The translations under genes and the position numbers were made by a program. Of a stretch of DNA of 64,000 nt, positions 43,997 through 49,191 are shown piece after piece. Position 1 is the first letter of the stretch. The number at the start of each line of letters is the position of its first letter. Origin of the DNA: Gammaproteobacteria bacterium (GTDB lineage: Bacteria > Pseudomonadota > Gammaproteobacteria > Enterobacterales > Alteromonadaceae); the NCBI GenBank assembly GCA_018222405.1, contig JAAFAI010000001.1, positions 310,001-374,000 of the forward strand, in the 5' to 3' direction. The notes under the pieces were generated by a model. That model was given only the letters and a program-made list of their open reading frames with translations. It had not been told where the DNA came from and did not search any database.

Positions 43997-44329
43997 ATGA
44001 TGCCATTACAACTTTTCAAATGCCTGTCGGATAACACCCGGCTGCAGTCGGTATTGCTGATAAGTCATTTTGAGGAAGCCTGCGTGTGCGATCTCATTGC
44101 CGCGCTTGAGCTCGATCAGCCCAAGGTATCCCGTCATTTGGCTGAGTTGCGACGCTGCGGTATTTTGCAGGATGAACGGCGCGGTAAGTGGGTGTACTAC
44201 CAACTGCACCAGGATTTGCCTGGCTGGGCGCTGGATATTATCCGCCTGACCGCTGAGAACAACCAGTCTTACTTTAGTTCCGCCATCGATAAACTTCATC
44301 AGTACCGGCAGCAGGGGCCGGGTTGTTAG
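43997..44329 (+). CDS. arsR: ArsR/SmtB family arsenic-responsive repressor
   Basis: The 110-residue winged-helix protein has SDNTRLQSVLLISHFEEACVCDLIAALELDQPKVSRHLAELRRCGILQDERRGKWVYYQL spanning the domain in the usual order. EEACVCDLI holds the ELCVCDL-type cysteine pair that binds As(III). It leads arsR-arsC-arsH-acr3 and should repress the operon until arsenite binds. AAGG precedes the ATG. Confidence 0.93.
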   Translation: MMPLQLFKCLSDNTRLQSVLLISHFEEACVCDLIAALELDQPKVSRHLAELRRCGILQDERRGKWVYYQLHQDLPGWALDIIRLTAENNQSYFSSAIDKLHQYRQQGPGC

Positions 44330-44356
44330 TTACGAAAAATCAAACAAAGGTCTGTT

Positions 44357-44827
44357 ATGAAAATTCTGTATATTTGCACTCACAATCGTTGCCGTAGCAT
44401 CTTGTCTGAAGCCATCACTAACCATGTGGCAGGTGAAAAAATCATTGCCCGAAGTGCCGGAAGTCAGCCATCCGGTGTGGTGCATCCGCTTTCTTTACAG
44501 TATCTCACTGAAGCGGGCGTGCCCACCGAAGGGTTAACCAGCCAGTCCTGGGATGAGTTTGAGGCGTTCGCGCCGGATGTGGTGGTAACCGTGTGTGACT
44601 CGGCCGCCGGCGAAACCTGCCCGGTGTGGTTCGGAAAGTCTGTCAAAGTGCACTGGGGGCTAAGCGATCCGTCCAAAGTAGAAGGTAGCGACGAGCAAAA
44701 AGCAGCCGCCTTCCGTGCCTGCATCAGCGAAATCACCGAACGGGTGAGCAAGCTGTTGCCGGTGGCAGAGCAAAGTGCATCGCCTACCGAACTCAAAGCT
44801 GCACTGGCTGCACTGGGAGCGCAATAA
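44357..44827 (+). CDS. arsC: Arsenate reductase, low-molecular-weight phosphatase type
   Basis: The 156-residue enzyme reduces arsenate to arsenite. CTHNRCRS (residues 7-14) is the P-loop with the nucleophilic cysteine, and [10 protein letters not shown] near 80-90 carries the cysteine pair that passes the disulfide, the thioredoxin-linked class. [11 protein letters not shown] near 96 is the general-acid aspartate block. It lies 27 bp after arsR and its stop overlaps the arsH start (TAATG). Confidence 0.93.
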
Positions 44828-45546
44828 TGACTATTAGCGATACTTCACTGCCCAATATTGACGAGTCGCAACTGGATATCCCCAGTTTTGAAAAATGCCA
44901 GCGCGAGGCTGCCACTCATGCACCGCGTATATTGTTACTTTACGGTTCGCTACGTAAACGCTCCTTCAGCCGGTTGGTGGTGGAGGAGTGTGCCCGGCTG
45001 CTGAGCCGTATGGGCGTAGAGGTGAAAATCTTTAATCCTGAGGGATTGCCGCAAACCGATACAGAGGACGAAAACCACCCCAAAGTTCAGGAGTTACGCT
45101 CGCTGATGATGTGGTCTGAAGGACAGGTGTGGTGTTCACCGGAGCGGCATGGCTCCATGACCAGTATTTTCAAGAGTCAGATAGACTGGGTGCCATTAAG
45201 TGTGGGCAGCGTGCGCCCTACGCAGGGCAAAACGCTGGCGGTAATGCAGGTATGTGGTGGCTCGCAGTCGTTTAACGTGGTGAACCAGCTCCGAGTGCTC
45301 GGTCGATGGATGCGGATGGTGACCATCCCTAATCAGTCCAGTGTGGCCAAAGCCTTTATGGAGTTTGACGAGAACGACAGAATGAAGCCCTCGCCCTACT
45401 ACAATCGCATTGTCGATGTGATGGAAGAACTCATGAAATTTACCCTGCTGCTACGCACCAATAAGGAGTATTTTGTTGACCGTTATTCAGAGCGCGTGGA
45501 GTCAGCAGAAAAACTCAGTGAGCGGGTTAACCAGCGGTCTATTTAA
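44827..45546 (+). CDS. arsH: ArsH-type NADPH-dependent flavin oxidoreductase
   Basis: The 239-residue flavodoxin-fold protein has [24 protein letters not shown] as FMN phosphate loop, and [26 protein letters not shown] and [23 protein letters not shown], which are diagnostic of ArsH. In other bacteria ArsH oxidises trivalent organoarsenicals with NADPH, giving resistance to methylated arsenic. It is translationally coupled to arsC and lies 11 bp ahead of acr3. Confidence 0.94.
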
Positions 45547-45557
45547 GGAATCAGGCA

Positions 45558-46574
45558 ATGGGATTATTCGAACGTTATTTATCAGTGTGGGTTGGACTCG
45601 CCATTATTGCTGGCATAGTGCTGGGTAGCCTGACGCCGGACATGTTCGCGGCCATCGCCAGTGTGGAGTACGCCCACGTTAACCTGGTTATTGCGGTGCT
45701 TATCTGGCTGATGATCTATCCGATGATGGTGCAGATTGATTTTTCCTCGTTAAAAGACGTAGGGAAAAAACCTAAGGGTCTGGCGCTGACCCTGATTATT
45801 AACTGGCTGGTAAAACCGTTTACCATGGCGTTGCTGGGCTGGTTATTTTTTAAAGGACTATTTGCCGACTGGGTCGACCCGCAAACGGCAACCGAATACA
45901 TTGCCGGGATGATTCTGTTAGGCGTTGCGCCCTGTACCGCCATGGTGTTTGTGTGGAGTCAGCTGACTAAAGGGGATGCTAACTACACCCTGGTGCAGGT
46001 GTCGATTAACGACATTATTATGATTTTCGCTTTCGCGCCAATTGCCGGTATGCTGCTGGGCGTAACCGATATCACCGTACCCTGGGATACCCTCTTCTTG
46101 TCGGTGGTGTTGTATGTATTAATCCCGCTGGTGGCCGGTGCGGTCACCCGTAAAAAGCTCGACAAGGGCGATGACCACTCGCGCCTGAATCAATTTCTGG
46201 CGACCATGAAGCCCTGGTCCATCATTGGTTTGCTGGCTACTGTGGTGTTGCTGTTTGGCTTTCAGTCAGAAACCATTCTGAATAAGCCCCAGGCTATTGT
46301 ATTAATAGCCATCCCGCTGTTAATCCAGACCTATGGTATTTTTGCCATCGCCTATTTTATTGCCAAACAGCTTAAACTGCCCCATAGCGTGGCCGCTCCG
46401 GCGTGTATGATTGGTACGTCTAACTTCTTTGAACTGGCGGTTGCGGTAGCCATTTCGCTGTTTGGTCTGCATTCCGGTGCGGCACTGGCTACTGTGGTGG
46501 GCGTGTTAGTAGAAGTGCCGGTGATGTTGTCGCTAGTGTGGTTTGCTAACCGCACCCGTCATTGGTTTACATAA
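45558..46574 (+). CDS. acr3: Acr3-type arsenite efflux transporter
   Basis: The 338-residue inner-membrane protein has ten predicted helices and Acr3 hallmarks: [65 protein letters not shown] with the essential cysteine, and [25 protein letters not shown]-like [17 protein letters not shown]. It exports arsenite. It closes the ars operon, and an adjacent hairpin may terminate transcription. It is not ArsB. Confidence 0.95.
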
Positions 46575-46669: not shown

Positions 46670-46727
46670 TAAAGGGGTCAGAGTACATTATTGCTGCGGT
46701 AATAATGTACTCTGACCCCTTTATTTT
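46666..46727. repeat. Perfect 27-bp inverted repeat with 8-nt loop (MITE/REP-like palindrome)
   Basis: The left arm 46666-46692 and right arm 46701-46727 are exact reverse complements around GCTGCGGT. The core GGGGTCAGAGTAC is of the kind found in dispersed intergenic palindromes of proteobacteria, often linked with REP-associated transposases. It abuts a Kelch gene remnant. The right arm continues into a T-run, so it could end transcripts from acr3. Confidence 0.85.
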
Positions 46728-46748
46728 TTTGCAGATTTCACTCTAATT

Positions 46749-46804
46749 TTACCCGGGTAATATTGATTTAATTTTGTGCGCTTGTTATTTTTACCCCGGT
46801 AAAA
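46749..46804. promoter_or_regulatory. Two TTACC-N2-GGTAA operator-like palindromes ahead of the DUF2239 gene
   Basis: TTACCCGGGTAA (46749-46760) is a perfect palindrome. TTTTACCCCGGTAAAA (46789-46804) has the same TTACC/GGTAA core around 2 nt, centred 42 bp away, i.e. about four helical turns. The second site ends 20 bp before the ATG. The pattern suggests two dimers of one repressor on the same face of the DNA. Confidence 0.65.
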
Positions 46805-46824
46805 TTAATCAGGAAAGAAAAATC

Positions 46825-47400
46825 ATGAGTAGCACTTATATAGCGATACATAAAAAGTCGCTGATCGCTCAGGGTGAGTTGCCGGCGGTTATTCGCGAAG
46901 CACTAAGGCAGTTCCCTGAAGCCGAACCTTATTTATACCAACTGGAAAATGGCAAGCGTGTGGATATCGACTGGCGCGGCGATGCCGAAGAGGTGATCAA
47001 GCGCCTGCCTGCTGCACTGGTGCCGCCGGTTAAAAAACGCGGCCGTCCCAAACTTGGCGTGATTTCAAAAGAAGTTACCTTACTCCCTGAGCATTGGGAG
47101 TGGTTGTCGGTGCAACGAGGGGGAGCTTCCACGACTTTGCGTCGCCTGATTGACTCGGCCATGAGTAACATGACACCGGCACAGGAACGACGCATTAAGC
47201 AGGATCAACTTTACAGCATGATGCGTGTTTTTGAGGATGAAGCCGGCTTTGAAGCGGCCTCCCGGGCACTTTATCGCCTCGATGATGCTGCTTTTACGCA
47301 GGCGATAGGCAGTTGGCCCGAGGCGCTGCAGACAATATATCAGGACAAGTTTAACCGCTTGTTAACCATAGGAAATGACTCCCATGACGGCACAAACTAG
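46825..47400 (+). CDS. DUF2239 family protein, possible ribbon-helix-helix regulator
   Basis: The 191-residue protein matches DUF2239 by its central block KKRGRPKLGVISKEVTLLPE and HWEWLSVQRGGASTTLRRL (residues 70-110). I note that RGRPK resembles an AT-hook core and that KEVTLLPEHWEWL plus GASTTLRRLIDSAM resembles a ribbon-helix-helix strand and helices. The ATG at 46825 has AGGAAAG upstream; an earlier in-frame start at 46774 would overlap the operator sites. The stop lies inside the MATE gene start region, so the genes are coupled. A DNA-binding role is inference. Confidence 0.75.
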   Translation: MSSTYIAIHKKSLIAQGELPAVIREALRQFPEAEPYLYQLENGKRVDIDWRGDAEEVIKRLPAALVPPVKKRGRPKLGVISKEVTLLPEHWEWLSVQRGGASTTLRRLIDSAMSNMTPAQERRIKQDQLYSMMRVFEDEAGFEAASRALYRLDDAAFTQAIGSWPEALQTIYQDKFNRLLTIGNDSHDGTN

Positions 47401-48802
47401 CCACAATCCCTACGTTAGCCCGCCGCTCACGACGGTGTTACTGAAAACCGCGCTGCCGATTATTCTGATGATGGTGGTGAGTGGTTCGTTGAATTTAGTA
47501 GACGCCTATTTTATCGGTGTCTTTGTGGGAGCCGATGCGTTGGCGGCGGTAACCGCAATGTTTCCAGTGTTTATGGTGTTGATTGCACTATCGACCTGGA
47601 TTGCCAGCGGTTTTGCCAGTGTAATGGCGCGCCTTAGCGGTGCTGGCAAACATGATGAAGCACGCAACGCTTATGCCCAGGCACTTAGCCTGGCGCTGGT
47701 TATCAGCATTATCCTGCTGACGGCATTCAGCCTGACCGGTCAGGCATTGGCGCTGGCCAGTAACAATGGTAATCAGGCGCAGGCCGCAATGAGTTTTACC
47801 TATATGAGTATCATCATGTTCGGTGCGCCGCTGATATTCTGGCTGGGAGTCGCCTCAGACAGTCTGCGTAGTGAAGGGCATATTGGTTTTATCGCATTGG
47901 TCTCGCTGTTAACCACCGTGGGCAACGGCGTTATGAATTATGTGTTTATCGTGCTGCTCGAACTGGGTGTGGCGGGTTCTTCCTATGGCACCATTGCCGC
48001 GCAAATCATCGCGCTGTGTGCGGTGTGGGGGTTTCGTCGCAGCCATAAAAACCGTCTCGGGCTATCACTATTTGCTTTAACGACGGTGCACAGCCGATGG
48101 CGTGAATTTTTATCACTGGGTGCGCCATCGAGCCTGACCTACGTGGGCGTGGCACTCACGTCGGGAGCGATCCTGTTCAGTCTGCAGCAATGGCTGCCCG
48201 ACAGCTACGAAGTCACAGTAAGCGCCTATGGCGTGATCACACGAGTAATGACCTTTATTTATTTGCCATTACTGGGGCTCGGCCTGGCCATGCAAAGTAT
48301 TGTGGGCAACAACGTTGGCGCGGAGCAATATCAGCGATCTAATCGCAGTTTGTGTATTGCCGTTGGCGTCGCCCTGCTTTACGGCGTGGTAACCGAAGCG
48401 TTGCTGTGGTGGCTGCGCGCCGATATCGGCCTGCTATTTGTTAACGATCCAGCGGTAACCAGTGAAATAGCCAGATTGCTGCCTGTAGTGAGCCTTGCGT
48501 TATTCCTGCTGGGGCCGTTAATGCTGATCAGTTTTTACTTTCAGAGTATCGGTGATGCCAAACGGGCGGGCATATTAAGTATTGCCAAAACCTATCTGTT
48601 TGCTCTGCCATTAATTTTTGTATTGCCGTTAATGTGGGGAGAATGGGGGATCTGGTACGCCGGGCCAGCGGCTGAGTTTCTTGCCCTGCTGCTAACCGGA
48701 GGCATATTGTACCAACGTGCTATACAGGGCAACCATCGCTTTGGTTTATTGTATGCTGTGAATCAACCTGAGCCACAACCCATCAAGCAGGAGGCGATAT
48801 GA
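47384..48802 (+). CDS. MATE family multidrug/metabolite exporter
   Basis: The 472-residue protein has twelve hydrophobic helices and MATE features such as LKTALPIILMMVVSGSLNLVDAYFIGVFVGADALAAVTAMFPVFM at the N-terminus. It exports organic cations or drugs using Na+ or H+. The ATG at 47384 has GGA about 10 nt upstream; the ATG at 47375 abuts that ribosome site. It overlaps the DUF2239 gene and its own stop overlaps the next gene (ATGA), so three genes form one operon. The substrate is unknown. Confidence 0.9.
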   Translation: MTAQTSHNPYVSPPLTTVLLKTALPIILMMVVSGSLNLVDAYFIGVFVGADALAAVTAMFPVFMVLIALSTWIASGFASVMARLSGAGKHDEARNAYAQALSLALVISIILLTAFSLTGQALALASNNGNQAQAAMSFTYMSIIMFGAPLIFWLGVASDSLRSEGHIGFIALVSLLTTVGNGVMNYVFIVLLELGVAGSSYGTIAAQIIALCAVWGFRRSHKNRLGLSLFALTTVHSRWREFLSLGAPSSLTYVGVALTSGAILFSLQQWLPDSYEVTVSAYGVITRVMTFIYLPLLGLGLAMQSIVGNNVGAEQYQRSNRSLCIAVGVALLYGVVTEALLWWLRADIGLLFVNDPAVTSEIARLLPVVSLALFLLGPLMLISFYFQSIGDAKRAGILSIAKTYLFALPLIFVLPLMWGEWGIWYAGPAAEFLALLLTGGILYQRAIQGNHRFGLLYAVNQPEPQPIKQEAI

Positions 48803-49191
48803 GCAAAGACAACGACAGCTATCAGCAGGGGCTGAAAATACGGCGTGAGGTAATGGGCGATGCCCATGTTAACCGGGCCATGAATAACGCCTCCGAATTC
48901 AGCCAGCCACTGCAGGATATGGTGATACGTAACGCCTGGGGCGAAACCTGGGTTCGCGACGGCATTAACAAGCAAACCCGCAGTCTGGTGACTATTGCCA
49001 CCCTGGCTGCGCTGAAAGCCTCTACTGAGCTTAAAGGCCACGTAAGAGGCGCTTTACGCAACGGTTGTAGCGTGGTTGAAATACAGGAAGTCTTGCTGCA
49101 CTCTGCCGTGTACTGCGGCATGCCAGCCGGGATTGAAGCGTTTCGCGCTGCAGAAGAAGCTATTCTGGCCTGGCAGGCCGAAAACGACTAG
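48799..49191 (+). CDS. Carboxymuconolactone decarboxylase family protein
   Basis: The 130-residue protein is similar to PcaC: GLKIRREVMGDAHVNRAMNN at the N-terminus and TRSLVTIATLAALKASTELKGHVRGALRNGCSVVEIQEVLLHSAVYCGMPAGIEAFRAAE, the typical helical core. True PcaC decarboxylates gamma-carboxymuconolactone in the beta-ketoadipate route, but no other pca genes are near. Relatives include AhpD-type and detoxifying enzymes. It is the last gene of the DUF2239-MATE operon. Confidence 0.87.
   Translation: MSKDNDSYQQGLKIRREVMGDAHVNRAMNNASEFSQPLQDMVIRNAWGETWVRDGINKQTRSLVTIATLAALKASTELKGHVRGALRNGCSVVEIQEVLLHSAVYCGMPAGIEAFRAAEEAILAWQAEND

Follow-up and report, generated by a model that had tools for sequence, protein, structure and literature searches.

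In the 64,000-nucleotide stretch analysed here (the window: contig JAAFAI010000001.1 of assembly GCA_018222405.1, positions 310,001 to 374,000), a gene of the DUF2239 family lies directly behind two palindromes and heads a short run of genes that continues with a MATE-family exporter and a carboxymuconolactone-decarboxylase (CMD)-family protein. DUF2239 is best read as the autoregulatory factor, probably a repressor, of an efflux and detoxification regulon. On comparative sequence evidence, it appears quite likely that the protein is a sequence-specific transcription factor that acts at the palindrome and governs both its own gene and those co-transcribed with it. It is very probably a regulator of its own gene, because most of the examined family members share the upstream palindrome and, in some bacteria, the same palindrome also precedes unlinked genes of similar kinds.

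The original prediction, made from the letters of the window, had described two palindromes with a TTACC-N2-GGTAA core, 42 bp apart, in front of the DUF2239 gene. Both are exact matches to TTACCNNGGTAA, with TTACCCGGGTAA as the core of site A and TTACCCCGGTAA as the core of site B, and they lie 42 bp apart from start to start. Between site A and the DUF2239 ATG (46825) there are 64 bases, and between site B and the same ATG 22; site B is also covered by the DUF2239 frame if that frame is extended to a TTG start. With one mismatch allowed, these two are the window's sole TTACCNNGGTAA matches. Their number by itself is not unusual, as two such matches arise in 45 of 100 shuffles; the two in the window are both exact, neighboring, and directly upstream of the DUF2239 gene.

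Comparison across genomes identifies the site as a conserved companion of the gene. DUF2239 genes are present in 4 of 147 genomes of the same family and in 43 of 398 genomes of the same phylum, our own genome included in each case. A first set of 65 loci combined the family loci, the best 30 of 45 rows from the phylum, 18 loci from named genome contigs, and 13 of 24 plasmid records. A site was scored when the 420 bases upstream of the RGRP codons contained a sequence within two mismatches of TTACCCGGGTAA; for plasmid loci, the search covered 260 bases upstream of the start or match. At least one site was found in 58 of the 65 loci and two sites in 36, against 0.48 and 0.000 in shuffles (first-order Markov resamplings rather than exact dinucleotide shuffles), and removal of near-duplicates left a site in 46 of 51. 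The set includes the window as L001, and L004 and L056 are apparently one locus, having the same DUF2239 protein and the same sites. A later set, unused in defining the motif, came from 385 genomes of the class of genome G516, by inference the Alphaproteobacteria, 28 of which carry DUF2239; here 20 of 22 loci had a site, compared with 0.20 in shuffles. Two further loci of this set (L156 and L157), missed by the anchor pattern, are counted in the total. Altogether, the palindrome that the original prediction expected to recur upstream of orthologues is present at up to two mismatches in 80 of 89 DUF2239 loci from four phyla, and 48 of the 89 have two. The pair is found in Deinococcus (L087, L088), on a Paenibacillus plasmid (L092), in Acinetobacter (L091), and in a Bdellovibrionaceae bin (L058); Deinococcus as well as Paenibacillus plasmids are among the plasmid loci. 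Two records labeled "Acinetobacter phage" also carry DUF2239, and a PHROGs scan of two family members returned nothing significant.

A profile of 88 sites gives an A/T-flanked palindrome of about 18-20 bp in which the central CCGG is strongly conserved. Most pairs have a spacing of 26-29 bp (32 of 39 in the first set), with 41-42 bp in the Alteromonas clade and 19, 35, or 52-53 bp in a few others. The 52-53 bp spacing was seen in three genomes of one genus (L139-L141), which also have one exact site before an unlinked hydrolase. At one of two neighboring offsets, TTGAC abuts the site in 51 of the 89 loci, and TTGA follows a site of up to three mismatches in 59; a loose -10 pattern lies 16-18 nt further on in 31 of those 59. 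From this placement, the TTGAC beside the site reads as a -35 box. Site A would then abut the -35 box, and at the common spacing site B would cover the -35/-10 spacer and the -10 box, while at the Alteromonas spacing, including in the window, it would overlie the -10 box and the transcription start of the inferred promoter. A promoter consensus scan listed nothing, the window promoter included. The position of the operator relative to the predicted promoter suits repression, since a protein bound over the promoter would block RNA polymerase.

The site is also tied to genomes that encode DUF2239. Exact copies of ACCCGGGTRATATTGA occur in 7 of the 385 class genomes, and all 7 carry DUF2239, compared with 28 of 385 overall (hypergeometric p 5e-9); in the phylum set, 10 of 398 genomes have at least one, and 8 of these are DUF2239 carriers, of which the set contains 43 (hypergeometric p 4e-7). 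Both p-values ignore relatedness. The two exceptions in the phylum are G246 and G355. The site in G246 (L122) lies under a 528-aa frame with two mismatches to the palindrome, and an exact ACCCGGGTRATATTGA copy in a DUF2239 genome, G779 (L130), lies under a 519-aa frame at the same distance; for these two reasons both candidates were set aside as chance. A mechanical frame over a site is not decisive in itself, because such frames also cover accepted sites (L101, L103, L104, L136). Distance from the palindrome separates the two kinds of genome: in genomes that carry DUF2239, 12 of 13 unlinked loci are at zero or one mismatch, compared with two to four mismatches in the 17 inspected loci, exact or with one mismatch, from genomes without DUF2239. 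A contrast is also visible between species of one genus, g158, in which a MATE orthologue is present in 8 of 8 genomes at 80-100% identity. A perfect site lies upstream of this gene in both genomes with DUF2239, whereas the best match in the upstream 260 bases of the six genomes without it has four mismatches.

Additional support comes from the unlinked genes that the site precedes, of which the MATE, GIY-YIG-like, and hydrolase genes are of kinds also found beside DUF2239 elsewhere. Exact sites stand before unlinked MATE genes (L101 in G337 and L102 in G340; MatE 4.7e-53 and 2e-54), a SnoaL gene (L100 in G398; 5.5e-34), alpha/beta-hydrolase genes (L134-L136 in G588, G701, and G791; 8.8e-24 for the one tested), and small GIY-YIG-like genes in four g151 genomes (L103-L106 in G343, G360, G427, and G499). 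The assignment of the last group is based on one match below cut-off (5e-4) among four tested proteins and on two plasmid relatives annotated as GIY-YIG. Near DUF2239 itself, MATE genes follow in 25 of the 89 loci (the window and one duplicate counted) and GIY-YIG-like genes occur in 23, within the flanks retrieved (mostly 1.5-8 kb). On the Paenibacillus plasmid, DUF2239 is followed by a DUF1330-like gene and then a hydrolase of the same family as the unlinked ones (57-58% identity), and hydrolase-related pieces lie beside DUF2239 in two other loci (L093, L098). Partner genes thus vary by lineage among MATE, alpha/beta-hydrolase, DUF1330-like, SnoaL, and GIY-YIG-like genes. The MATE genes themselves fall into two distant groups that share about 22-28% identity, and the link between DUF2239 and MATE may therefore have arisen more than once. 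The efflux and detoxification unit proposed from the window is predicted to extend, in some genomes, to unlinked genes with the same site. An aromatic or lactone ligand is a guess: among the loci compared, only close Alteromonas relatives (L050-L055) have a CMD gene like that of the window next to DUF2239, and the window's CMD gene is one of seven CMD-family matches in the genome. In L093, a CMD-family gene lies about 3.8 kb from DUF2239.

Some side observations concern these partners. The GIY-YIG-like protein, of about 110 aa, recurs both near DUF2239 and at unlinked operators (L103-L106, L017, L094, and others). Genes annotated as DUF1330 follow DUF2239 on Paenibacillus, Rhizobium, and Eleftheria plasmids (L092, 4630-6000; L093; L089), with Pfam matches below cut-off in the two tested. 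On the Paenibacillus plasmid, tet(L) is annotated directly upstream.

If DUF2239 is the regulator, its likely point of contact with DNA is a short core, in which 25 of the 31 invariant columns of 13 diverse members fall (residues 70-113), in the order RGRP-LGV, E-TLLP-HW-WL, Q-GGAS--LR-L. The core contains RGRPK, which resembles an AT-hook, then EVTLLP and two helices. In an AlphaFold model built with 19 sequences (mean pLDDT 82), an N-terminal alpha/beta part and a C-terminal helical part are confident, while the mean pLDDT in the core is low, at 50 for residues 71-80 and 66 for residues 81-90. This model and a model of the core alone both place two helices (88-95 and 100-114 in the former) after an extended EVTLLP stretch.

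The original prediction had proposed a ribbon-helix-helix (RHH) fold for this region. That DUF2239 is a true, divergent RHH repressor of the Arc/MetJ/CopG superfamily with a shortened first helix is compatible with its role as an autoregulator, and we put this slightly short of an even chance. The modeled order of EVTLLP, first helix, GGAS turn, and second helix is that of an RHH half, and it fits a fold in which the strands pair only in the dimer. Conservation of the operator is highest at the dyad center (CCGG), where a single two-stranded ribbon would be expected to enter the groove, and there is an RHH precedent for repression of a regulator's own promoter through two sites, AmrZ (PMC3325190). 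Against this, the monomer models assign no strand at 82-87, and similarity searches did not recover the fold. None of the 13 members scanned matched an RHH model in Pfam, where profiles can miss such short domains; hhalign of 31 DUF2239 against 18 RHH_1 sequences from relatives, with a 19th locus, L086, yielding no sequence, reached E 0.09 over 14 columns at best; and hmmsearch of PDB sequences with whole and core alignments gave best E values of 0.33 and 0.61, both to unrelated proteins. With the whole model, its core of low confidence, no RHH protein was among 50 of 78 Foldseek rows (best E 1.3) or 50 of 154 VIA-align rows; the latter mostly cover the C-terminal helices (residues 115-188), with Z up to 7.2 and common according to the tool. 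The core model, a low-confidence monomer, gave no match with either program. These missing matches do not prove that the fold is not RHH.

Several observations weigh against DUF2239 as the protein that acts at the palindrome. No recognized DNA-binding domain was found in it. Exact TTACCNNGGTAA occurs at 21 places in the whole genome (5 for the reversed control), and the 16 of these that were examined contain no second target: 14 lie inside long mechanical reading frames and the other two are sites A and B. Nine of the 89 loci have no site within two mismatches, although five of them (L016, L028, L030, L142, L143) have one at three mismatches and in another (L065) the upstream region is interrupted by a contig end; in the remaining three (L027, L066, L067) the best site has four or five. 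The relatedness behind the p-values matters, as three of the seven class genomes share a genus, and the contrast in g158 is probably one event, because both positive genomes are close relatives with 96% identical MATE proteins. Finally, the ACCCGGGTRATATTGA 16-mer at one mismatch is present in 73 of 398 genomes, 16 with and 57 without DUF2239, compared with 1 for the reversed control. The matches in these 57 genomes outnumber that control, and DUF2239 does not account for them. They may reflect chance or codon use, with some 60 one-mismatch matches expected in 398 genomes from a uniform-base estimate, with which the reversed control does not agree. Separately, the two Xylophilus DUF2239 genes (L066, L067) keep the conserved core and have no recognizable operator upstream.

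The palindromes might instead be bound by a regulator unrelated to DUF2239, such as a TetR- or MarR-type protein, with DUF2239 only one of its targets. Such regulators typically have palindromic sites of this size, and the lack of a recognized DNA-binding domain in DUF2239 would be accounted for. Regulators do lie near some DUF2239 genes: an AraC-type gene next upstream in L093, an Lrp-type gene next downstream in L095, a response regulator next downstream in L058, and, in both Deinococcus loci, two-component genes at most 4 kb away. Nevertheless, no single regulator family recurs beside DUF2239 in the 10 annotated plasmid loci, the sites track DUF2239 over four phyla and between species within one genus, and in L088 and L091 the pair is still present where DUF2239 stands between opposite-strand genes on both sides. 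We therefore consider an unrelated regulator unlikely. It is far less plausible still that the palindromes are a structural element of RNA or DNA, such as a hairpin or attenuator: they are inverted repeats near the inferred transcription start, but their central bases are conserved rather than co-varying, single sites recur before unlinked genes, and site A would not be transcribed from this promoter because it is upstream of or on the inferred -35 box.

The reading of DUF2239 as an autoregulator suggests the following scheme. The protein would bind TTTTACCCGGGTAAAA directly, in many cases at two copies placed on the promoter of its own gene, and control that gene together with, here, the MATE exporter and the CMD-family protein. 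Core residues 70-114 may read the CCGG center and the RGRPK arm the A/T flanks. A small molecule handled by the exporter and enzymes would release DUF2239 from the DNA, and in some genomes the same site would place unlinked partner genes under the same control. The role of operon regulator acting through paired palindromes, first suggested for the window, gains strong support from sequence comparison. More tentatively, and on the doubtful side of even, DUF2239 may found a cross-phylum family of ligand-released autorepressors, with a DNA-binding module outside the described superfamilies (a minor-groove RGRPK arm and a CCGG-reading core), an operator pair kept nearly unchanged from Deinococcus to Paenibacillus and Proteobacteria, and a scattered regulon for xenobiotic export and detoxification.

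A literature search, with most subscription journals and preprints outside its coverage, found no paper naming DUF2239, COG3644, or PF09998, and among the matches listed for the motif strings all look unrelated by title. A family annotated only as "uncharacterized", present in 43 of the 398 sampled phylum genomes and on Deinococcus and Paenibacillus plasmids, could be given a function, an operator, and target genes. The conservation of the operator makes binding testable with one short DNA fragment. A regulon that joins MATE exporters, hydrolases, SnoaL, and GIY-YIG-like proteins suggests an unrecognized response to a natural compound. The fold, in turn, would tell whether RHH factors extend beyond the reach of profiles or whether another DNA-binding design is at work.

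Table 1. Features of the DUF2239 locus, in positions of the window.
Feature	Position	Strand	Basis
Operator site A (predicted), AATTTTACCCGGGTAATATT	46745-46764, core 46749-46760		TTACCNNGGTAA match, site kept in relatives
Operator site B (predicted), ATTTTTACCCCGGTAAAATT	46787-46806, core 46791-46802		TTACCNNGGTAA match, site kept in relatives
Inferred promoter: TTGATT 46763-46768, 17 nt, TATTTT 46786-46791	46763-46791	+	Analogy with the TTGAC offset of relatives
DUF2239 gene (191 aa, proposed autoregulator)	46825-47400	+	PF09998, E 2.9e-44
DUF2239 conserved core, residues 70-117 (proposed DNA-binding part)	47032-47175	+	Invariant columns, models
MATE-family efflux transporter gene	47384-48802 (alternative ATG 47375)	+	PF01554, 6.6e-40
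CMD-family gene, PcaC-like	48799-49191	+	PF02627, 2.4e-21
Perfect hairpin of AAGGGGTCAGAGTACATTATT	46672-46721, or 46673-46720	both, terminator-like	Dispersed genome repeat, outside operator

The gene order proposed earlier for the window agrees with coordinates and Pfam matches (Table 1). DUF2239, MATE, and CMD run in the same direction, the end of DUF2239 overlapping the MATE ATG, whichever of the two is used, and the end of MATE overlapping the CMD start. The DUF2239 protein scores 151.5 bits against PF09998, above the gathering cut-off of 25, and the CMD protein reaches 149.3 bits against the PcaC model TIGR02425 of NCBIfam, just below its cut-off of 155.7. The genome is Alteromonas-type, and the four closest loci, from Alteromonas alba, A. 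oceani, and two metagenome bins, share 91-95% DUF2239 protein identity.

An arsenic-type operon of ArsR-, LMW-phosphatase-, FMN-reductase-, and SBF-type genes (43997-46574) precedes the DUF2239 gene, and the palindrome pair sits in the gap between them. We take its members to be an LMW-phosphatase-type arsenate reductase, an ArsH-like FMN reductase, and an SBF/ACR3-like transporter. The hairpin separates this operon from the DUF2239 promoter. The genome has 21 copies of its 21-mer (9 forward and 12 reverse, at up to two mismatches), and inverted pairs of it less than 30 bp apart are found 8 times; here, the dispersed repeat perhaps serves as the terminator of the arsenic-type operon.

An autoregulated efflux operon is of a known kind, while the regulator family, the operator, and the regulon appear to be new. 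AcrR, TetR, and MarR are repressors of the TetR and MarR families that autoregulate efflux operons. DUF2239 loci resemble them in having predicted operators over the regulator's own promoter, an adjacent exporter, and an efflux and detoxification regulon, but differ in the protein family, the conserved bases at the dyad center, and a tandem pair spaced mostly at 26-29 bp across phyla. Like the RHH repressors Arc, MetJ, CopG, and AmrZ, DUF2239 has a strand-like stretch, a short helix, a glycine/serine turn, and a helix, with palindromic sites at its own promoter. Unlike them, it has an additional N-terminal alpha/beta domain and C-terminal helices, its first helix is shorter by about three residues than that of the RHH sequences used for comparison, and it is without a detectable match to them in sequence or structure. 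AT-hooks and GRPR arms are minor-groove binders with a basic RGRP core, which KKRGRPK at residues 70-76 resembles, and the flanks of the operator are A/T-rich; in DUF2239, however, there is a single arm beside a folded core, and its contact with the minor groove is presumed.

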